Shown in pieces: positions 857 through 14,377 of a DNA stretch of 38,436 bases. The stretch comes from Bacteroidota bacterium (GTDB taxonomy: Bacteria; Bacteroidota; Rhodothermia; Rhodothermales; JAHQVL01), in assembly GCA_039111535.1 (NCBI GenBank), contig JBCCIM010000037.1:1-38436 (forward strand), in the 5' to 3' direction. A model generated the notes under the pieces. It was not told where the DNA came from and did not search any database. It saw only the letters and a program-made list of their open reading frames with translations. The position numbers were made by a program, and so were the translations under genes. Positions within the stretch are counted from its first letter, which is position 1. Each line of letters begins with the position of its first letter.

Positions 857-2128
857 ATGGAAGCTGCATTTATTATTGCCGGCGCCATCATCTTCATCTT
901 CATGACTATTTTTGGCATTTTCAGGGCCAATCTGAAAATCTGTCAACCCAACGAAGTCCTCATTTTCAGTGGGCGCAATCGTCAACTAAGCGACGGCAGT
1001 ACCCTGGGCTACCGTGTTATCCGCGGCGGAAGAAGCTTCCGTTGGCCTATCATTGAACAGGTAGATCGGTTGGAATTGAATACCATCCCAATCGACCTGT
1101 CCGTTACCAATGCTTACTCAAAAGGGGGCATTCCACTAACAGTTCGCGCAATTGCCAACGTGAAAGTTGCCTCCAACGAGCCTGAGCTCAACAACGCGGT
1201 GGAACGCTTACTCGGTAAACCGCTTGGTGATATCCAGGTCATCGCCAAAGAAACCCTCGAAGGTAACCTGCGCGGCGTTTTGGCAACCCTTACACCCGAA
1301 GAGGTTAATGAGGACCGACTCAAATTTGCCCGCACCCTGCTTGATGAAGCTGATAACGACTTGAGTGCACTCGGCCTGCAGCTCGACACGCTTAAAATCC
1401 AGAGTGTCGAAGACGACCGGGGCTATCTCGATGCTATTGGTCGGCAAAGAACAGCACAAATTATCTCTGCTGCCGAAGTAACAGAAGCCCAGCAGAAGCA
1501 GCATGCCCGTCTGGCTGAAGCAACAGCAGACAAATCTATCGCAGAAGCGGAAAACGAAGTGCGTATTGTGAAAGCACAGTTAGCTGCAGAAGCCGAGGCA
1601 GAAGAAGCCAAAGTTAGTATTGCCGCAAAAGTTGCAGAGGCGCGCGCCGAGCAAGAGCTTGCTGAGCAGGAAATTACGCTGGCAGAGAAAAGGCAGCGCT
1701 CTTCGGTCATTGTGGCTGCAGAAGCAGAACGCATGGCCAAAGAAGAGATTGCCAAAGGTAATGCCGCGCGCATCCTCGAAGACGGCCAGGCAGAAGTGGA
1801 AGTGCTGCGCCGCAAACTTGAGCTATGGAACCAGGCCGGCCCAGATGCAGAGCGCCTCTTCCTGATTCAAATGTTGCCAGAAATCATCCAACAGGTTGTG
1901 AATACCGTTGATAACCTGCAGATTGACAAAATCACCGTGGTCGATAGCGGCACGGGCGGTAGTGGGGTGCCTGCCGTCTTCAATCAGATTGCGGGCGCTA
2001 CGCCTGCCCTGCTTGAAAGCCTTAAAGCATCCACCGGTGTGGATATTGCCGGCATGCTCAGTCAGGCCTCTCAAAACCAAACAGGGCCCTCCAATTCTAG
2101 CGGGGACCCTACAGGAAATGGTGATTGA
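857..2128 (+). CDS. Flotillin-like SPFH-domain protein
   Basis: The 423-aa product begins with a single membrane segment (about residues 3-22). An SPFH/band-7 domain (about 27-200) follows, then a long Ala/Glu-rich helical region (about 200-330) with the EAE-type heptads typical of flotillins. The tail is short and low in complexity, rich in Gly, Ser and Asn. Flotillins oligomerise on the inner face of the membrane and organise microdomains that hold signalling and transport proteins. The helical region contains runs such as AEAEAEEAKV. Start ATG 857 is fixed by a strong Shine-Dalgarno site. The preceding NfeD-like gene makes this a YuaF/FloT-type pair; at 423 aa it is shorter than FloT (about 509 aa, from memory). 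A strong terminator follows. Family assignment is secure; which flotillin subtype it is cannot be decided here. Confidence 0.9.
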   Translation: MEAAFIIAGAIIFIFMTIFGIFRANLKICQPNEVLIFSGRNRQLSDGSTLGYRVIRGGRSFRWPIIEQVDRLELNTIPIDLSVTNAYSKGGIPLTVRAIANVKVASNEPELNNAVERLLGKPLGDIQVIAKETLEGNLRGVLATLTPEEVNEDRLKFARTLLDEADNDLSALGLQLDTLKIQSVEDDRGYLDAIGRQRTAQIISAAEVTEAQQKQHARLAEATADKSIAEAENEVRIVKAQLAAEAEAEEAKVSIAAKVAEARAEQELAEQEITLAEKRQRSSVIVAAEAERMAKEEIAKGNAARILEDGQAEVEVLRRKLELWNQAGPDAERLFLIQMLPEIIQQVVNTVDNLQIDKITVVDSGTGGSGVPAVFNQIAGATPALLESLKASTGVDIAGMLSQASQNQTGPSNSSGDPTGNGD

Positions 2129-3076: not shown

Positions 3077-3600
3077 TCGAAAGCAGGCTGTTTATATCCG
3101 ACACATAGAGGAGGCCTGGAGCTGTCTGCTTAGTTGCGCTGTGGGGATTCGCGCTTCAGTGGGGTCAAAACAGAGTCAGCTACTTACGTAATCGGCAAGA
3201 ATTGGCGTTTTGTAAGCCCCGACATGCACACAACCCGACTCGTTACACAATCGTTACACAATCATCAAAACCCACGCTCTTGTAAATTAGGGTCGCTTTA
3301 ATGCCGATTTTCGAGTGCCGAATGCCGAGTGGTTTTCCTTTTCTGCAAAAGACTCGCTATCTGTGCCGTAGTAGTGCAAAACAGAAGCACGGAAATACGA
3401 AAACACACAAAAGCTCGATCATGCTTCAAAACCTAAATTCGCCTCACCCCAAACTCCGCTCTCCAAACTCCGCTCTCCAAACTCCGCTGTAACACCTGCC
3501 CAACTCACAAACAAAAAAGAATCCATCCCCGTTTTTTCACGTAGACAGGGTTTATGTGTAACACACTGGACGCGGCTTGTATTTTTGCCCATGCATCACA
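3077..3600. other. Non-coding region with decayed short repeats
   Basis: This stretch of more than 500 bases carries promoters for the two divergent genes that flank it, but I see no convincing gene or RNA. It contains repetitive fragments: overlapping copies of GTGCCGAATGCCGAGTG-like words around 3315-3333, and three tandem 14-base units near 3449-3490. Short reading frames here have atypical composition and follow the repeats, so they are not called. Confidence 0.6.
3449..3490 (+). repeat. Three tandem 14-base repeats
   Basis: The unit CCAAACTCCGCTCT occurs at 3449-3462 and 3463-3476, with a third copy at 3477-3490 that differs by one base near its end. It lies about 125 bases before the likely start of the next gene and has no coding sense. 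Confidence 0.9.
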
Positions 3601-3615
3601 GAGTCTGAGGTCGTA

Positions 3616-6564
3616 TTGGAAACAGCACGTATACAACTAAACCACCGTATTTTCTTTTTGCTGTGCACTTTCCTGGTTGGTTTAAGCATCCAATCAGCGC
3701 AAGCACAGGGGTTCTCTTCATTCAACGGACGTAACCACCCTGAACTGGACTGGCAACAGGCTGAAACCGAGCACTTCAAAATCATGTATCCGGCACACCT
3801 CGCCGGCATCGAAATGCAGGCCGGCGTAATTGCAGAGACGACATACACGGCCCTCTCACAAAATCTGGACGTCACCTTTGACGAAAAAATCAGGATATAC
3901 CTGTCTGATGAAGACGAAATCCTGAACGGATTTGCGGTCTCGTTACTCGGATACACCAACATCTGGGTACACGTGAATGACGTTGCAGCTTCCTGGTCCG
4001 GTAATACCAAGTGGCTAAGAACCGTAATCTCTCATGAGCTGGCCCACCTGTTTCATGGCAAAGCTGTAAAAAGCCGGCTGGGACTTGCTGCTTATTTCCT
4101 CGGAGACCCAATGCCCAGCTTCTGGGCAGAAGGGCTGGCGCAATATGAAACTGAAAAATGGGATGCCAACCGCGGAGACAGGTGGCTGAGAACGGCTGTT
4201 CTCGACGACAAACTATCATACGAAGACGGACGATCAATCTGGAATGGCCGGCTGCTCTATGCATCAGGAAACTCACAACTGCGCTTCCTCGCCTCTCAAT
4301 ACGGCGATTCTACCATCACAAAAATCCTCAAACACAGGAAATACGCTGCATTCGGACGGTTTGCGCACCACGACTTTTTCACAGCATTTGAGGATGTAAC
4401 AGGCCAAGGCTATCGCACCTTTTACGAGGAATGGCGCCGGCACATGAATGTCTACTACAACACACTGGCTGGCCAAATGGAGTTGCCTGACTCCCTCGAT
4501 GCCAAACCCCTCAAACTGGGAGGCCAATACGTCTACGATATCAAATACAGTCCGGACACAACCCACGCAGCCGTATTGTCGCTCGCTTCAATTAGCCGGC
4601 CTGTTGTAAGGCTGCAAGTGATTCATCGGGAAACAGGCACCGCAAAAACGGTTGCTGATGGTAGCATTCGTGCCCCTATCGCCTGGCACCCGGAAGGCCG
4701 GCAGTTGGCCTTTACCCGCCGAACCCGTCAGAAAAACGGTGCGCTGATCAACGATCTGTTTGTGACCTCCCGAAATGGCAAGAACACAAAACGCCTGACC
4801 CGTGCGCGCCGCGCAAGTGCACCTGCCTTTTCACCAGACGGTACCCAACTGGCTTTTATTGGATCTGCAGGCGGTACCGCAAACGTATTCCTGTACAACC
4901 TGTCGACAGGCGAAGAAACGCCACTAACCACATTTACAGGCGATGTGCAGTTGGCATCACTCGACTGGCACCACGCGGCTAATATGCTTGTGGTAGGCAG
5001 ATTTGATGCAGATGGCGACCGCGACATCCTGCTCCTGAATCCGAAAACGGGCGAAGTAGCCACCATCTCACCAACAGGCACAGATGACCAGTATCCTGTT
5101 TGGAGTCCGGATGGCAAACAGATTGCCGTTACTTCGCTTAGTGATCGGGTGCCCAATGTGTTTATCTGGGACCTCGAAACGCGCACTCGCCGGCGGGCAA
5201 CCAATCTAATCACTGGCGCACAGGCCTTTGACTGGCTGCCGGCAGATTCTTTACATGCAAAGGGCACCCTCATCGTAACAACGAGCGCATCCAAACAACG
5301 AGATCGTGCTTACCGTATCGACGCAGCGCGCGTACCTTTTGAGACAGAAATTACTATACCTGCTTCCTATTCACGATGGACAACCCATACGCCAGGTGTA
5401 ACTATTCCGGCCACCGTCGATGCAGATGAATCGGTTATCACCAAAAGGAGTCCCTACAAGTCAATCAAGAACCTCGTCCACCTGTTTTCTTTTGGGCTAC
5501 CCTACTACAACAATGCCGACGATTGGGGCGTCATTGGCGCCACCTCGTGGACAGAGCCGCTCGGGCACCACACCTTCGGGGCCACAGCTTCACTTGCGCT
5601 CAAAAACACACGAGAAAACAGCTTCCTGCTGGCTACCTACGTAAACAACCAGTTGCGCCCAACCAGTACCTTAAGCGCGTACTCGTTATTGCCAACCGCA
5701 CGCGCCTATGGCAACAATTATTTGCTTGATGAAGTCTCTGGCGCAGACGTGACGTTTGACTGGCCACTCGACATCGCCGTGAAGCCTTACACAGGTACCC
5801 GGCTGGATTTACGGTTGCAATATGCGGCCATCGATCAGTTGAATCCGGAAGATTATGAATCGCTGCCGGCCGGCTTACTGCCCCCGCAGCAAGGAGAAAA
5901 GGCGGAATTACGACTAGGGTTCATCCGTAAAAAGCTGCGCCCCTACAGTGGCAATGTTGTCCATCCCCTTGATGGCCGGGGCATCAAGCTCCAGGTTGCA
6001 GTGAGTGACAAAATCTTTGGCGGTGATACCCGCTACTTACGGGCAGATGCTGCAGCTTATGCTGTACTGCCAACAATTCTGGCAAACAGGCTGTTTGTCT
6101 ATGGAAAGGCCACACTACTTAGTGGCAACACCTTTAATCAGGAACGCCCCGGGTTTGCTCGTTTTGATGATATTCAGATAACGGCGCCACAGTTTGGCAT
6201 CATGGCTTTTTCGGATGCGACTCGCGTACGTGGATACCGGGAATTTGCGTACGGCGATCGCGTGCTCTTTGGCACCGCCGAATACCGCATGCCTGTATTG
6301 CCCAGCTTGCAAACCACAATCCTGGGCCTCATTTCATTGCGTCAAACCACCCTCTCCGCATTTATAGATGCTGGCGCTGTCTGGGAAGATGGTGTGCGTA
6401 TCACGCGGCGTACAGGTGCCGGGATTGAAGCGAAAAATGCCCTTGTGATAGGCGGTGTATTGCAACTTATGCACGCGGTCGGGATTGCACAGCCCACATC
6501 CCAATTGGGAACGACTGACGATTATGAGGTTTATTACCGTGTGCGGGCGTCCTTGCCATTTTAG
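3616..6564 (+). CDS. Outer-membrane fusion: HExxH peptidase-like domain, TolB-type propeller, Omp85-like barrel
   Basis: A protein of about 982 aa with three parts. After a signal peptide ending in QSAQAQ comes a domain with the zinc-peptidase motif HELAH (cat codon at 4033) and a candidate third ligand in AEGLAQY (Glu codon at 4129), the arrangement of gluzincin-type peptidases. The middle part has repeated WD40/PD40 blades of the TolB kind, with motifs such as AWHPEGRQLAF, FSPDGTQLAF and VWSPDGKQIAV. The last third is beta-rich, carries an Omp85-like VRGY segment (near 6220), and ends in Phe like outer-membrane barrels. TTG 3616 is chosen because GAGG lies 5 bases upstream and the signal peptide follows; an upstream TTG at 3577 is possible. 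It stands alone. A surface or periplasmic protease tied to a barrel is inferred; the substrate is unknown. Confidence 0.8.
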   Translation: METARIQLNHRIFFLLCTFLVGLSIQSAQAQGFSSFNGRNHPELDWQQAETEHFKIMYPAHLAGIEMQAGVIAETTYTALSQNLDVTFDEKIRIYLSDEDEILNGFAVSLLGYTNIWVHVNDVAASWSGNTKWLRTVISHELAHLFHGKAVKSRLGLAAYFLGDPMPSFWAEGLAQYETEKWDANRGDRWLRTAVLDDKLSYEDGRSIWNGRLLYASGNSQLRFLASQYGDSTITKILKHRKYAAFGRFAHHDFFTAFEDVTGQGYRTFYEEWRRHMNVYYNTLAGQMELPDSLDAKPLKLGGQYVYDIKYSPDTTHAAVLSLASISRPVVRLQVIHRETGTAKTVADGSIRAPIAWHPEGRQLAFTRRTRQKNGALINDLFVTSRNGKNTKRLTRARRASAPAFSPDGTQLAFIGSAGGTANVFLYNLSTGEETPLTTFTGDVQLASLDWHHAANMLVVGRFDADGDRDILLLNPKTGEVATISPTGTDDQYPVWSPDGKQIAVTSLSDRVPNVFIWDLETRTRRRATNLITGAQAFDWLPADSLHAKGTLIVTTSASKQRDRAYRIDAARVPFETEITIPASYSRWTTHTPGVTIPATVDADESVITKRSPYKSIKNLVHLFSFGLPYYNNADDWGVIGATSWTEPLGHHTFGATASLALKNTRENSFLLATYVNNQLRPTSTLSAYSLLPTARAYGNNYLLDEVSGADVTFDWPLDIAVKPYTGTRLDLRLQYAAIDQLNPEDYESLPAGLLPPQQGEKAELRLGFIRKKLRPYSGNVVHPLDGRGIKLQVAVSDKIFGGDTRYLRADAAAYAVLPTILANRLFVYGKATLLSGNTFNQERPGFARFDDIQITAPQFGIMAFSDATRVRGYREFAYGDRVLFGTAEYRMPVLPSLQTTILGLISLRQTTLSAFIDAGAVWEDGVRITRRTGAGIEAKNALVIGGVLQLMHAVGIAQPTSQLGTTDDYEVYYRVRASLPF

Positions 6565-6689: not shown

Positions 6690-7925
6690 ATGCGTTTGAC
6701 TCATCGCTTTTTGCTAGCGATCCGGGGGGCACTTTTTGTTTTTGTGCTACTTGTAGCCATTGGCTGCGAGTTTATCCAAAACCAATCTACCAGTGGTGCA
6801 GATTCCCTCGCCGTAGCTGACTCCAGTCTGGGGGTTGTTATTGACTCCCTTGAAAAGATGGTGCCGGCTCCGCTAGACTCCCTTGTCGCCGAGAACGCAC
6901 AGGCACAAAACAATGCTCAGGAGACGCCGCCAACACCTGCAGCACTTCCCGATACGCAAACAGTTGCTGTTTCAGCCACACTCCTCGACAGCCTCCTCCA
7001 CGAAGTATCTGCCCTCAGGTCTGCCGTACAACCAGATACAGCGGGCATAGCCGTCGACCCTGACCTGCAAGACCAACTCACCAATGCTGTAGGCGGCATC
7101 CAGAATCTCGGGCGCAACATCTTGCTCTCTATTCTAACGATTCTGCTGTTCTTCTATGTGATCCGCAGCATCTCCTGGACACTGGAACGCTTCTCAGAGC
7201 AAAGTGCCACGCGCCGGCTCTTCTTCAAACGACTAGTCCCGATTGTCCGCATATTGATGTGGACCCTCGCAATCTACATTATTCTGATTCACGTTTTCGC
7301 ACTGAAAGAGAGCCAGCTTATTTCAGCATGGACCGCCATTGGCCTCGCTGTTGGATTTGCCTCACAGGATATCCTGAAAAATATATTTGGTGGCATCATT
7401 ATCATCATCGACCAACCTTTTCAGGTTGGAGATAAAATAAATATCGGAGGCACGTACGGAGAAGTGACCTCCATTGGCCTCCGCTCGACACGTATTGTTA
7501 CGCCCGATGACAACCTGGTATCTGTACCAAACGCACAGGTGGTTGAAAGCCAGGTTGCCAATGCCAATGCCGGCGCACTCGATTGTCAGGTTGTAATAGA
7601 TCTCTATCTGCCCGGCTGGGTTGATGTGATCAAAGCAAAAAACATTGCTTACAATGCTGCGGCAAACTCAAACTACGTGTACCTCGAAAAGCCTATTGTG
7701 GTGAACGTGAAAGATGTCTTTAAAGAGACCTTCCTGACCCACCTTGCCGTGAAGGCATATGTTATCGACACACGCTATGAATTTGCATTCGCCAGTGATG
7801 TAACGGAGACAGCCAAAGCAGAATTCCAGCGCAACAACATGTTGATTCCGCTAACGAATATGCTGGCTGTAGGGCAGAAAGAATCTGAGAATGGTTCAGT
7901 GGACAGCGAGGTTGAGCCCCAATGA
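6690..7925 (+). CDS. MscS-family mechanosensitive channel
   Basis: The 411-aa product has an N-terminal hydrophobic segment ending in VAIGC, a polar low-complexity periplasmic stretch (about 28-140), two membrane helices, and then the MscS core. The pore helix region is clear (AVGFASQDILKNIFGG), followed by the beta domain signature FQVGDKI and the conserved SVPNAQV. MscS channels open under membrane tension and release solutes during hypo-osmotic shock. ATG 6690 is preferred to a TTG 15 bases upstream. The stop overlaps the next start by 4 bases (ATGA), so the two proteins are translationally coupled. The N-terminal Cys resembles a weak lipobox; if processed, the channel would be lipid-anchored, which is unusual. 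Confidence 0.9.
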   Translation: MRLTHRFLLAIRGALFVFVLLVAIGCEFIQNQSTSGADSLAVADSSLGVVIDSLEKMVPAPLDSLVAENAQAQNNAQETPPTPAALPDTQTVAVSATLLDSLLHEVSALRSAVQPDTAGIAVDPDLQDQLTNAVGGIQNLGRNILLSILTILLFFYVIRSISWTLERFSEQSATRRLFFKRLVPIVRILMWTLAIYIILIHVFALKESQLISAWTAIGLAVGFASQDILKNIFGGIIIIIDQPFQVGDKINIGGTYGEVTSIGLRSTRIVTPDDNLVSVPNAQVVESQVANANAGALDCQVVIDLYLPGWVDVIKAKNIAYNAAANSNYVYLEKPIVVNVKDVFKETFLTHLAVKAYVIDTRYEFAFASDVTETAKAEFQRNNMLIPLTNMLAVGQKESENGSVDSEVEPQ

Positions 7926-10900
7926 GTAACACGGACACGATAGCAGAACCAACATCTCAGACCAACGGGGCAGCGCCAGAAAACTATTGGACTGAGACGC
8001 GAGATCAACTGAAGCGTGTTGTCGCCGATGTGCACAATACAACCGTTGATGGTGCTGAAAAACTCGAAAAAAGCATCAGCGATGACCACCTCTCCCCCAT
8101 ACTGGAAGCCTTTGGGAAAGCTGCCGCTGTACACAACACCTTGCAACAGGAAATCAAAACCGCACTGGAGCAAGGGGAAGGGGTCACATGGGAGCAGGTA
8201 CTGAAATATCGCCGTGGCGCGATGGAGCAAGTACTCAAACCCCTGAACGCCCGGCTCGGCGTCCAGGTATCGGAGCAGGTTTACAAGAGTTTTCTCAAGC
8301 TGTTTACCGACCTGCGTAGCAGCATCGCAAACATGCCGGCAACGCAACAAATTCCGGAGCCGCCCAACCTCTTCGCACCAAGTCCTTCAGATGCAGCCTG
8401 GACACGCCTGAGGAAAATGCAGGTCCGTAGTGGCAAACACATGCGAGCCGCGCGGTATGGCATTGGCAACGGCTTTCGCAAGCTCGTTGGCCGACCTGCA
8501 ATCAATACGCCAATCCCTCAACAGGAAGTCAAGCTGCAAGAGTTGCTGCGTTACCATGTAAAGGTACGCGTGCCTAATGTGTTTACAGAGACCTTCAATG
8601 CCATTCACGGCTTCCTGACAAAACATATCGCGGCATTTGAACGCGCCCAAACACAATGGACGTACCTTATGCTTGACCTGGAGCTAGAGGTCGCCGAGCC
8701 AGATCATCAACTGGATGCACTTGATGCCTGGTTAAGCCTTGAAAAGGCAGCGCAACGGTACAATGACCCCAACTGGGCCAAAAGCCTTTTAAACGCGATT
8801 ACCGGACTGCACTCGTGTATTGAAGAAATTGCGGCACTCGAAGTCCCGACACTACAGGTAGACACTGGTCTCCTCGAAACTTGCGCGCAAAACCTGTACG
8901 TAGATTTCAAGCACAGCGGTACCTTTCTGCTACGCGATCGGGCCATACCTGAATCCAGTGACCAGGTGGTCTCCCAACTTGGGCATGCGACCGGTTTCTG
9001 GAAGACCTGGTACCGAGAAGCCAGCAACAGGCTCAATCTGAACACCAAGCTGCACGAATTGCGGGACTTTCTACTCCGCCGGCAAAAAGGATTGCTCGGG
9101 TCTATTGCAAAAGCATCCGTTATCCCCATTCTAAAGTCTTTTGACCAACTGCGCGATACGTTTTTGCGGGTACAAGAAGAGGTCATTCAGATTTGCAGTG
9201 GCCCTGCCGGTGAACAGGACGAAGCCAAAATCCGTGCTGAATTGGAAGTGCGGCACCAGCAAATCACCGGGCAATTCAAGCGCATTTTAAACGACGTTAC
9301 CAATTTACTCCGCGCCGGCCAGGCGCTGGAAGAACCCGGCACCGTCTTCTGGAATGACCTGCATCGCTTCATCGAAGGGTTGCCTGAACAGGTAGAAGTA
9401 CACGAAACCTCGCAGTATCCGATTTCAGAACAGGAATCCATTCACCATCAGTATCAGATAGAGCTTCGGGAAATTGTGCAGTCTGCGCTCCTCAAGTCCT
9501 TCCCTGAGCAGCTAACAAAATGCGCCAAAGCTTTGCAAAAAGCGGTAATCCATACCTGGGAAGAGACCCAGCAAGTGGAATACATGGTTGATTATAACAT
9601 CAAGGCAGCTTTTGCCGAAATGTTGGATGAACAGGAAAAGCAAGACATTACAGATGCCACGCAACCTGCACTTACAGCAGAACCCGACGACCCTGTCGCG
9701 CTTGCACAGGAATTGATCACAGCCGGCCTCGGCCGATCCACAGAAAAACTTACGGAGCTTGCAAAAGGCCTGCATGGGCCGTGGATCAACCTGGCCGATA
9801 AAGCTTCTGCTGCCATCAAGGTGTACTCTGTTGACATCCTCCATAACGTGCTGGAGGAAGATCACATGAACAACCGGTGGACCAACTTCAAAATGAAGGT
9901 CACCAGGTCGTTCAAAAAAATGATACAGTCGGGCGAAAATCAACTATCCCGCTTCCAACAAACCCTTGCCGACGTAGTCAAACGGGGCCGGCGGCGCACC
10001 CGGCAGTTAATAAAAAAAGGGCAGACTGCCGTTGGTGTTGTAGACCAAAGCGAAGACCAGTGGCTGTCCACGCTTGATCTGGCATCAGACATTGATACGT
10101 TGCACAAACGCCTGCCCCTTGTTTATCGCCGGCTCTTCTCTCTCAAACCCCTGGCTGACCTCGACCTCCTCGAAGGGCGCAAACTTGACGTAGCATTTGT
10201 AAAGAAGCATTACGCCCAGTGGCAGAAAAGCCAGACCGGCCCGCTCTTGCTCTCCATGCCCGATGGCAGTGGAAGAACCAGTTTCATGAATGTACTGATA
10301 CGGTCTATTTTCGAGGGCGCCAACGTTCAACCCATATCCCTGAGCCGGCGTGTACCTGACGACACCGCGTTTGCACACCAGGTGGCCGAAGCCCTCGGCA
10401 TCCCCGTCTCAGAAGACCTGACCCTCGCATCGCTCGAAGCCCACATTATAGCTACACCGCGCAAACAAGAGCCCCTTGTCCTGGTCATTGATCGCTTTGA
10501 GCACTTGTTGCTTTGCTCACCCGGCGGTCACTCGCTGATCGAGCGCGTGCTCATTTTTATGTCGCGTACAGACAACCTGATTTACTGGGTGATCAATGTC
10601 AGCGCGCATGCCTGGCATTTCCTGGAAAAAACCATGAGCCCTTCATCCGGCTTCATCTCTGCTTATCGGGTTACCAATTTGCAGCGCCAGGCGCTTGAAG
10701 ACATTATCCTGAAGCGGCACCACAGAAGCGGAATGAACCTGCAGTTCAGGCCAACCATTGCATCAAAAACGTGGTTGGACTTTGCCAGTCGCGGCTCTGA
10801 ACAAAGCCAGCAGGACGCTCACAGGGCTGCATTTTTCGACAAGCTTTACCGCCTCTCCGGGCAAAACATTTTGCTGGCCCTCTTGTACTGGCTTCGCGCT

Positions 10901-11245
10901 GTTGAATTTGACGCTGAAGAAGACACGCTTTTTGTCAACGGCATTCAACCCATCAACTTTTCTTTCCTCGAAACACTTGACCTTCCCCGCGCCTTCACGC
11001 TCAAGTCTTTCCTGACACACGGCACCCTAACGCTTACTGAGCACATGCGGGTCTTCAAGCTGAGCGAAACCGATAGTACATTTATCCTGGAATCGCTGCT
11101 CAACCTGCGCATCATCGAGCCATCAGGCGCCGGCCTCGAAGACGGCATTCATTTCAGAATCGAAAAAGACCAACCGTACCGCCTGCACCCTCTCATTGTC
11201 CACCCTGTACTGGAATTCCTCACCAAGAAGCACATTGTTTATTAG
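7922..11245 (+). CDS. Large P-loop ATPase-like protein of unknown function, coupled to the MscS channel
   Basis: The 1107-aa product has no signal peptide or obvious membrane segment. The first 750 residues are long, largely helical and unlike any family I recognise. The C-terminal third looks like a STAND/AAA-type NTPase: a Walker-A-like PDGSGRTS (residues 780-787, Arg where Lys is usual), a Walker-B-like VLVIDRFEH (Asp 857), and a helical C-terminal domain with a winged-helix feel. It starts at ATG 7922 inside the end of the MscS gene, with GAGG at 7908-7911 as a possible Shine-Dalgarno site. Coupling to a mechanosensitive channel suggests a cytoplasmic partner, perhaps sensing or regulating the channel, but that is inference. 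The P-loop Arg may mean weak or no ATP hydrolysis. Confidence 0.75.
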   Translation: MSNTDTIAEPTSQTNGAAPENYWTETRDQLKRVVADVHNTTVDGAEKLEKSISDDHLSPILEAFGKAAAVHNTLQQEIKTALEQGEGVTWEQVLKYRRGAMEQVLKPLNARLGVQVSEQVYKSFLKLFTDLRSSIANMPATQQIPEPPNLFAPSPSDAAWTRLRKMQVRSGKHMRAARYGIGNGFRKLVGRPAINTPIPQQEVKLQELLRYHVKVRVPNVFTETFNAIHGFLTKHIAAFERAQTQWTYLMLDLELEVAEPDHQLDALDAWLSLEKAAQRYNDPNWAKSLLNAITGLHSCIEEIAALEVPTLQVDTGLLETCAQNLYVDFKHSGTFLLRDRAIPESSDQVVSQLGHATGFWKTWYREASNRLNLNTKLHELRDFLLRRQKGLLGSIAKASVIPILKSFDQLRDTFLRVQEEVIQICSGPAGEQDEAKIRAELEVRHQQITGQFKRILNDVTNLLRAGQALEEPGTVFWNDLHRFIEGLPEQVEVHETSQYPISEQESIHHQYQIELREIVQSALLKSFPEQLTKCAKALQKAVIHTWEETQQVEYMVDYNIKAAFAEMLDEQEKQDITDATQPALTAEPDDPVALAQELITAGLGRSTEKLTELAKGLHGPWINLADKASAAIKVYSVDILHNVLEEDHMNNRWTNFKMKVTRSFKKMIQSGENQLSRFQQTLADVVKRGRRRTRQLIKKGQTAVGVVDQSEDQWLSTLDLASDIDTLHKRLPLVYRRLFSLKPLADLDLLEGRKLDVAFVKKHYAQWQKSQTGPLLLSMPDGSGRTSFMNVLIRSIFEGANVQPISLSRRVPDDTAFAHQVAEALGIPVSEDLTLASLEAHIIATPRKQEPLVLVIDRFEHLLLCSPGGHSLIERVLIFMSRTDNLIYWVINVSAHAWHFLEKTMSPSSGFISAYRVTNLQRQALEDIILKRHHRSGMNLQFRPTIASKTWLDFASRGSEQSQQDAHRAAFFDKLYRLSGQNILLALLYWLRAVEFDAEEDTLFVNGIQPINFSFLETLDLPRAFTLKSFLTHGTLTLTEHMRVFKLSETDSTFILESLLNLRIIEPSGAGLEDGIHFRIEKDQPYRLHPLIVHPVLEFLTKKHIVY

Positions 11246-13498: not shown

Positions 13499-14377
13499 GT
13501 GCGGTTTACTTTCCCAATCCATTTCAAGACTTACAGTCCGACTCAAATCGAGGTTCATACCTCCCCAGCATCCTTGACGATATTTGATTGGGTCATACCG
13601 ATTCGCGTAGTCGATCTCATCGAGATTGCCATCGTCTCTTTTGTCCTCTACAAACTGTATTTACTGATGCGCGGTACCATTGCCGTGCAGTTGTTCATTG
13701 GTGTGCTTGCGCTATTCCTCGTAAAAATCCTCGTGGAATCTGCCAACATGACCATGCTGCGTGTTCTCTTCAGGCAGTTCAATGAAGTATTTGTATTGGC
13801 TGTAATTATCCTTTTCCAGCCAGAAATTCGCCGTGTCCTGTTTATTCTGGGGAAGAACAATCCGCTCATGCAGCGCTTTGTTGTGACGCCGGCGCAGGAA
13901 GGCATGATTACAGAAGTCCTTTCAGCAATTAGCGAAATGTCGCAGCGGTGCATTGGCGCCCTGATTGTTTTTGAACGATCCACCGGATTGCGCAACTACA
14001 TCGAAACGGGCACCCTCCTGCAATCAAAAATTAGCCGCGACCTGCTCGTCACCATTTTTTACGCACAGAATCCGCTACACGACGGTGCCCTCATCATCCG
14101 CAATCAACGCGTAGAAGCTGCACGCTGTATCCTCCCGGTATCCAACAGCATGCGCATGAGCCCATTGCACGGCTTGCGGCACCGCGCCGCTGTGGGGTTA
14201 ACCGAGCAAACAGATGCGTTTGTAATTGTGGTTTCGGAAGAAACGGGGCAAATTTCCATTTCAAAAAACGGCGAACTCATTTCTAATTTGACCGTCGAGG
14301 AGCTGCGTACGTACCTTACAGAAGCGTTAACTATACTCCCACAGGCAGAAGAAACCCCTAGCACCCCCGAAGCCTGA
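13499..14377 (+). CDS. cdaA: Membrane diadenylate cyclase (CdaA)
   Basis: The product makes cyclic di-AMP from two ATP. It has three N-terminal membrane helices (about residues 35-105, depending on the start) and a DAC catalytic domain with the signature DGA (195-197, in LHDGALII) and RHR (227-229, in GLRHRAAVG). Both are required for catalysis, so the enzyme is probably active. Length (292 aa or less) is normal. The start is uncertain: GTG 13499 gives a hydrophilic leader before the first helix, whereas TTG 13574 gives an N-terminus (TIFDWVIPIRVVDLIEI) more like relatives. Neither has a good ribosome binding site. c-di-AMP controls K+ uptake and osmolyte balance in many bacteria, which fits the channels in this window. 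No cdaR regulator gene is adjacent. Confidence 0.93.
   Translation: MRFTFPIHFKTYSPTQIEVHTSPASLTIFDWVIPIRVVDLIEIAIVSFVLYKLYLLMRGTIAVQLFIGVLALFLVKILVESANMTMLRVLFRQFNEVFVLAVIILFQPEIRRVLFILGKNNPLMQRFVVTPAQEGMITEVLSAISEMSQRCIGALIVFERSTGLRNYIETGTLLQSKISRDLLVTIFYAQNPLHDGALIIRNQRVEAARCILPVSNSMRMSPLHGLRHRAAVGLTEQTDAFVIVVSEETGQISISKNGELISNLTVEELRTYLTEALTILPQAEETPSTPEA

Follow-up and report, generated by a model that had tools for sequence, protein, structure and literature searches.

The window, that is, the whole stretch of DNA that was analysed (38,436 nt), carries a gene for an MscS-family channel followed by the gene of a long partner protein, denoted here as BP (Table 1). The two genes share an ATGA, as the earlier note had read: the start codon of BP (ATG at 7922) lies inside the stop region of mscS, where TGA occupies 7923-7925. 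From this overlap we infer that the two genes are translationally coupled and that their products are made in step. Taking whichever in-frame start is closest to the upstream stop, a choice that favours short distances, and removing near-identical copies, we found an overlap of exactly -4 (ATGA) in 41 of the 55 pairs with mscS first, and a BP start at most 20 nt from the mscS stop in 50 of them; with BP first, the spacing was at most 20 nt in 81 of 85 pairs and exactly -4 in 31. The 41 exact and 50 close spacings place the ATGA overlap beyond chance.

Table 1. Coordinates of the features discussed; positions refer to the window unless a locus is named.
Feature	Position	Strand	Details
mscS gene, MscS-family channel	6690..7925	+	411 aa from ATG 6690
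Signal-peptide-like start of MscS with lipobox-like Cys26 (VAIGC)	6690..6767	+	Sequence
MscS beta-domain	7368..7568	+	PF00924 match, residues 227-293
ATGA stop/start overlap of mscS and BP	7922..7925	+	Sequence
BP (partner protein) gene	7922..11245	+	1107 aa/codons; stop ends at 11245
BP predicted helical repeat 1 (about residues 20-257)	7979..8692	+	Structure models; hhalign
BP predicted helical repeat 2 (about residues 344-576)	8951..9649	+	Structure model; hhalign
BP predicted very long helix (about residues 591-704, ~110 residues)	9692..10033	+	Structure models
BP predicted AAA+-like and winged-helix part (residues 729-1107)	10106..11242	+	ORC/Cdc6/TnsC-like fold, structure comparison
BP P-loop, Arg785 (AGA, 10274-10276) for the Walker A Lys	10253..10282	+	G782-S-G-R-T-S
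Walker B-like Asp857 (GAT), end of Walker B strand	10490..10492	+	Sequence, alignment
RHxxSG family motif (BP residues 932-937)	10715..10732	+	BP sequence alignments
cdaA, diadenylate cyclase	13499..14377	+	TIGR00159 225 bits (cut-off 188.8); DAC and CdaA_N domains
SLC12-like-BP fusions	L050:170-5416; L051:7083-12143; L138:5986-11079		Followed by an MscS-type protein of ~245 aa, very short

The product of the first gene belongs to the MscS superfamily (MscS, MscK, bCNG), with which it shares the beta-domain and conserved residues of the pore helix. The Pfam family MS_channel_2nd (PF00924) scores 76.1 bits against a cut-off of 20.2 and is the sole Pfam match at E <= 1, with no cyclic-nucleotide-binding domain found on the protein; a profile of the partner-type MscS proteins matches at E 3.7e-166. 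In the pore-lining helix TM3, residues A224, Q226, N231 and G235 are invariant in 17 aligned partner MscS proteins (17 of 19 rows, as L036 and L045 were left out for unclear starts), and we take these residues to be equivalent to pore positions of E. coli MscS. At its N-terminus, the protein has a signal-peptide-like stretch whose last residue is a presumably lipobox-like cysteine, and such a cysteine is present in 12 of the 17 aligned partners, counted by eye. A lipid-anchored N-terminus would be unusual for a channel. In the partner MscS proteins, a long variable stretch, presumably periplasmic, follows this cysteine.

The earlier note had described BP as a long helical region followed by a C-terminal P-loop module, and the predicted structure agrees. 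AlphaFold modelled the whole protein with pLDDT 82.2 and pTM 0.51, and residues 1-712 separately with pLDDT 84.4 and pTM 0.74. In these models, BP is mostly helical over about residues 20-704 and an alpha/beta AAA+-like domain begins at about residue 729. The helical part is an internal duplication, its two repeats aligning in hhalign at E 3e-7 over 182 columns. The very long helix that follows has a one-residue break at 617 in the model of residues 1-712. Stretches rich in Arg and Lys occur near residues 164-195, within the first repeat, and 690-705. The earlier note had asked whether the helical part matches a known unrelated family; Pfam, NCBIfam and the fold searches gave no clear match, with nothing at E <= 0.001 for residues 1-712 against solved folds in Foldseek.

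The fold of the C-terminal part was recognised from structure. Compared with solved structures, the model of residues 729-1107 gave a best Foldseek E of 8.2e-8, and the closest chains were 7jgr_G (Z 16.3, 3.5 Å over 249 residues), 1w5t_C (Z 15.4, 5.9 Å over 322 residues) and 2qen (Z 14.7), the last an ORC/STAND-like fold. The predicted model thus has an AAA+ core with lid and winged helix, at Z 15-16 to ORC/Cdc6 chains. Searches with the sequence gave less. All Pfam matches of BP were below their cut-offs (AAA_22 with 16.7 bits where 27 are needed, TniB with 17.3 where 22.4 are needed), TrkA_N was absent at E <= 1, NCBIfam gave no match, and a PDB sequence search with BP alone gave nothing at E <= 10. 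With a BP profile, the first AAA+ match in the PDB was 7jgr_G at E 0.0028, ranked under two designed helical proteins.

The residues that the earlier note had picked out are in place: Arg785 stands where the Walker A lysine would be, and Asp857 in Walker B. BP of the window therefore departs from the Walker A pattern GxxxxGK[ST] at the lysine, and the residue that follows the Walker B aspartate is not acidic. The rest of the P-loop is kept, as G784, T786 and S787 are invariant in 18 aligned BP proteins (18 of 19 rows, the truncated L040 having been left out). The lysine was found in none of the 62 scored BP rows with mscS upstream and in 79 of the 88 labelled as having mscS downstream. In these counts a gene may appear in two rows, and 5 of the 79 rows come from hand-labelled loci in which no mscS was seen. 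In place of the lost lysine, the 62 rows of the mscS-first order carry Arg (28), Val (13), Ile (10) and other residues. The lysine changes six times in all on the BP tree, with independent losses outside the clade of the window too. In P-loop proteins, loss of the Walker A lysine usually abolishes hydrolysis. Since the lysine is lost and the rest of the P-loop is kept, a binding or structural role appears likelier than catalysis, and BP in the window's clade is probably a binding switch or pseudo-NTPase that does not hydrolyse, or a scaffold. The NTPase module of the earlier note is thus supported as an AAA+/P-loop fold, whereas catalytic activity in the clade of the window is not supported. 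The loss of the lysine accompanies the reversal of gene order, which lets NTP-dependent and NTP-independent forms be compared as they occur in nature.

We then consider how the pair is distributed. BP is present in 23 of 60 genomes of the window's own order, its own genome included, and a profile search found the partner-type MscS in the same 23 (hits at E 8.7e-131 or better, the next best at 1.4e-34). The pair is absent from the other 37 of 60 and is therefore dispensable. In 18 sufficiently long relative loci and in the window, mscS lies directly before BP on the same strand. In a wider set of 150 distinct BP genes (159 minus near-copies), 137 have an adjacent mscS on the same strand, 52 upstream and 85 downstream. 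The linkage, on which the earlier note had made its reading depend, is thus kept in relatives, and the conserved adjacency and co-occurrence support a dedicated P-loop-fold protein paired with an MscS channel. Of the 13 BP genes with no adjacent mscS, 11 are at contig ends, and one is a 122-aa fragment, the second hit in L173. In L214, one of these, the contig continues for 1430 nt, in which an open frame runs past the end and MscS gives no match. The flank of L201 is open sequence with no recognised mscS, which counts against the regulatory reading that we prefer below.

At phylum level, the BP profile had matches in 72 of 394 genomes, including two weak ones, G056 and G410 (L141 and L142, E 9.4e-5 and 4.7e-4), which we rejected as BP carriers. 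Among named GTDB contigs, one peptide pattern found at least 78 BP loci. These come from Rhodothermales and other Bacteroidota/Rhodothermota, from Balneolales and Myxococcota/Deltaproteobacteria, from many Gemmatimonadota and from a handful of MAGs that carry other labels. One cultured carrier is Roseithermus sacchariphilus (L143). Sister lineages have the opposite order, with the partner before mscS, and usually a canonical P-loop; the Balneolales-type BP of L189, for example, has the lysine. Within one genus, the pair is in G018 and missing at the same site in six of seven genomes (G004 and five more), and in genomes without it the two flanking genes are 21-80 nt apart. Gain or loss affects both genes at once, and G018 and its six close relatives form a natural experiment on its presence and absence. 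In L035, L036, L047, L048, L049 and L140, the pair has as neighbour a further, divergently oriented mscS of a different subtype, with which it forms a small MscS cluster.

The descent of both genes was followed on quick trees with SH-aLRT support only, for which thinning of near-copies left 123 of 170 rows for MscS and 118 of 155 for BP. In the MscS tree, in which several branches are long, all 33 upstream partners fall in a single clade (SH-aLRT 99), and together with 37 downstream partners they group as 70 rows (SH-aLRT 97). For this tree, eight loci initially scored as non-partner were relabelled 'down' by hand because the MscS ORF directly follows BP and the matched domain is further off. 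A separate group (SH-aLRT 95) is formed by 28 non-partner MscS proteins, some of them from the same genomes; the second MscS proteins of L156 and L158 fall there and were rejected as partners. In the BP tree, the gene order switches once (SH-aLRT 100), with 15 loci labelled 'down' by hand, of which L194, L201, L212, L214, L215 and L217 have no recognised adjacent mscS. The group with mscS first is thus one clade on both trees. Chance adjacency of mscS and BP is ruled out by these trees and by the adjacency in 137 of 150 genes. The MscS proteins of loci in which BP is fused to an exchanger or an SLC12-like domain lie outside the 70-row group, several on long branches, so the trees stop short of a single origin for all pairings.

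These fusions connect BP to ion transport. In 31 proteins, counted with near-identical copies removed, a BP module is fused behind a Na+/H+-exchanger domain with about 10-13 predicted transmembrane segments. Pfam names the domain PF00999 (Na_H_Exchanger) in L116, L196 and L213, and the other fusions were assigned by similarity; L124, for which Pfam named no exchanger, matches the exchanger part of L116 at E 7.7e-62. In four other loci, BP stands behind an AA_permease/SLC12-like domain, recognised by Pfam in L050 and L051 and by similarity to L050 in L138 and L191. L050 scores 384.7 bits with the K-Cl cotransporter model TIGR00930, under its cut-off of 953.4. In all transporter-BP fusions except L201, an MscS-type gene comes next wherever the sequence continues. 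In L128 (5065-9462), the BP module follows a membrane domain of 11 segments; trkH lies on one side of this gene and an MscS-type gene on the other. We rejected L128 as an exchanger fusion, as its N-terminus matches no other exchanger query, L196 or Pfam family. A TrkH fusion in L194 and L220 was also rejected, since in both loci trkH is an overlapping ORF of its own, and TrkH matches nothing in the long BP frames.

The K+-uptake genes trkH and trkA lie on the same strand beside 24 of the 31 exchanger fusions, and also beside L128, against 1 of 123 BP loci with no recognised transporter part, where rows may hold a gene fetched twice and the 123 include proteins cut at the contig start that are possibly fusions (L208, L211, L214, L218). 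Of the seven exchanger loci with no trk genes, five start at a contig end, and L210 and L213 have upstream sequence with no match. Pfam confirmed trkH in L124, L116, L196, L192 and L128, and trkA in the four of these loci that were scanned for it, L124, L196, L192 and L128. The operon typically reads trkA-trkH-[exchanger-BP]-mscS in Myxococcota records and, the domain family of L128 aside, around L128 in the window's phylum; it typically reads [exchanger-BP]-mscS-trkH-trkA in other genomes of that phylum. Two observations count against extending this to the window. None of the 12 flanking ORFs of the window that were scanned belongs to the trk family, and the sequences place the transporter-fused relatives at a distance from the window's clade. 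The helical profile of that clade, with L128 set apart and in row counts that may hold a gene fetched twice, matches 102 of 111 long unfused, 23 of 31 exchanger-fused, none of 4 SLC12-fused and 1 of 12 short BP proteins.

Membrane tension alone is the usual account of how MscS channels are gated, a few domain-fused variants apart. Accessory control has precedents in K+ (MscK) and cyclic nucleotides (bCNG). In contrast to MscK and bCNG, the accessory part here has its own gene, of about 1000 codons, which encodes an AAA+-like domain, and, unlike in bCNG, neither the window's MscS nor BP has a cyclic-nucleotide domain. BP residues 729-1107 appear to share the fold of the ORC/Cdc6, TnsC and STAND-like AAA+ proteins, including lid and winged helix. 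However, identity is about 8-16% in the structural alignments listed, BP of the window's clade has no Walker A lysine, and its gene is coupled to a channel gene. An analogy may also be drawn to the RCK/KTN K+ transporters (TrkA-TrkH, Kef), where a nucleotide-binding-type module controls ion flux, given that relatives of BP are fused to a Na+/H+-exchanger-type domain or lie beside trkH; but BP has an AAA+-like domain and helical repeats in place of TrkA_N, and its constant partner is MscS. The N-terminal parts of L050 and L051, and through similarity to L050 those of L138 and L191, are like SLC12 cation-chloride cotransporters, yet they are fused to a BP module with an MscS-type gene following; none occurs in the window. 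Among the titles and abstracts listed by full-text literature searches, whose coverage took in few subscription papers and preprints, none described a pair of mscS and an AAA+-like partner. The parts thus belong to known superfamilies, and the arrangement and the partner family were found undescribed in the literature searched. What these searches did not turn up is an MscS channel whose AAA+-like partner has its own gene, is kept in several phyla and is shared with transporters.

We consider it fairly probable that BP is a dedicated cytosolic regulatory partner of the adjacent MscS, the two forming one unit of ion and osmotic homeostasis. That MscS is the constant partner, with exchangers, cotransporters and K+ uptake as variable additions, is what points to a regulatory module of this kind. 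BP would reside in the cytosol, bind a ligand and contact MscS at the cytoplasmic side of the channel, where it would shift the opening threshold. Its C-terminal ORC/STAND-like AAA+ fold would serve as a nucleotide-binding switch. The cytosolic state (ionic strength, crowding or nucleotide) could be read by the duplicated helical rod and its basic stretches, acting as a sensor or lever. BP may be a nucleotide switch in sister lineages that keep the P-loop intact, and a binding switch or scaffold in the clade of the window. Where an exchanger-BP fusion, mscS and K+-uptake genes stand together, uptake or exchange and emergency release could be under one regulator. More tentatively, and with somewhat less than even confidence, we propose a widespread, undescribed module, made of helical repeats and an AAA+-like switch, that couples a mechanosensitive channel to ion transporters, nucleotide-dependent where the P-loop is intact and non-hydrolysing in the window's clade. 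If true, BP would be the first regulatory subunit of the NTPase type for a mechanosensitive channel of bacteria, and one control unit would join uptake through Trk, exchange by Na+/H+ and SLC12-like domains, and release through MscS. The proposal makes testable a threshold of the bacterial safety valve that is set by the cytosol and coupled to ion uptake.

It seems doubtful that BP is an assembly, localisation or membrane-organising factor, such as a chaperone or scaffold built of long helical arrays, and not a gating regulator. The very long helices and duplicated repeats would fit such a factor, and loss of the P-loop lysine in the window's clade suits a structural role. Dynamin-like, BAR-type and pore-former chains are among the fold matches of the helical part, and bacterial dynamin-like and BAR-type ones would suit a scaffold. 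However, these matches are weak and decide nothing: in VIA, residues 1-712 reached a Z of at most 12.9, within the stated helical-bundle noise (Z under 13). Moreover, a reduced BP of about 450 aa that consists of the AAA+-like part only is followed by mscS in L106, L108, L109, L111, L112, L114, L115 and L117. This group belongs to the window's class and makes up eight of the 12 short proteins. As it is still paired with mscS, the helical lever is not always needed, and these proteins are natural evidence on which part is essential. The C-terminal position of BP in the transporter fusions would also be more typical of a regulatory domain.

Compared with a regulatory partner of the channel, it is improbable that BP is a soluble transcriptional or signalling regulator encoded with mscS by happenstance. 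ORC/TnsC-like AAA+ proteins with a winged helix have a DNA-binding fold in known members, and the same fold in BP could mean DNA binding. But relatives of BP are fused behind about 10-13 predicted transmembrane segments, and adjacency and tight spacing are kept even after the reversal of gene order, tighter than a general regulator would predict. A defence role, which the earlier note had also suggested, is unlikely, and highly so in the form of a STAND-like sensor that opens the MscS pore to kill or arrest an infected cell: the ORC/STAND-like fold (as in 2qen) resembles sensors of conflict systems, weak, sub-threshold nSTAND matches occur in relatives, and the pair is in one of the seven genomes of the genus above, but neither the mscS product nor BP gave a match in PADLOC-DB at E <= 1, the pair is of old descent (one deep clade with mscS first on both trees), neighbours recur in part of the relatives, with the same sigma-factor gene after the pair in 8 of the 19 larger loci, and the lysine loss, the ion-exchanger fusions and the K+-uptake (trk) neighbours in relatives are against it.

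The neighbours that recur in part of the relatives are genes for a sigma-70 factor, folP and cdaA, and others vary. Among the 19 larger loci (L031-L049), the sigma-factor gene lies directly after the pair in the eight counted above, and a cdaA-type gene is present in 7. In the window, cdaA sits beyond the sigma-factor and folP genes. As c-di-AMP is a known regulator of K+ and osmolytes, the nearby cdaA makes it a candidate ligand of the regulatory partner proposed here. On the forward strand upstream of the pair (3577-6564), a large protein has, in one chain, weak matches to an M48/MA-type peptidase, a PD40 beta-propeller and a C-terminal Omp85-like part, and some of the relatives also have a protein of this kind before the pair. 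Not far upstream, at 857-2128 (+), a flotillin-like SPFH/Band 7 protein is encoded, and a membrane-organising protein of this type near a mechanosensitive channel may merit a look.
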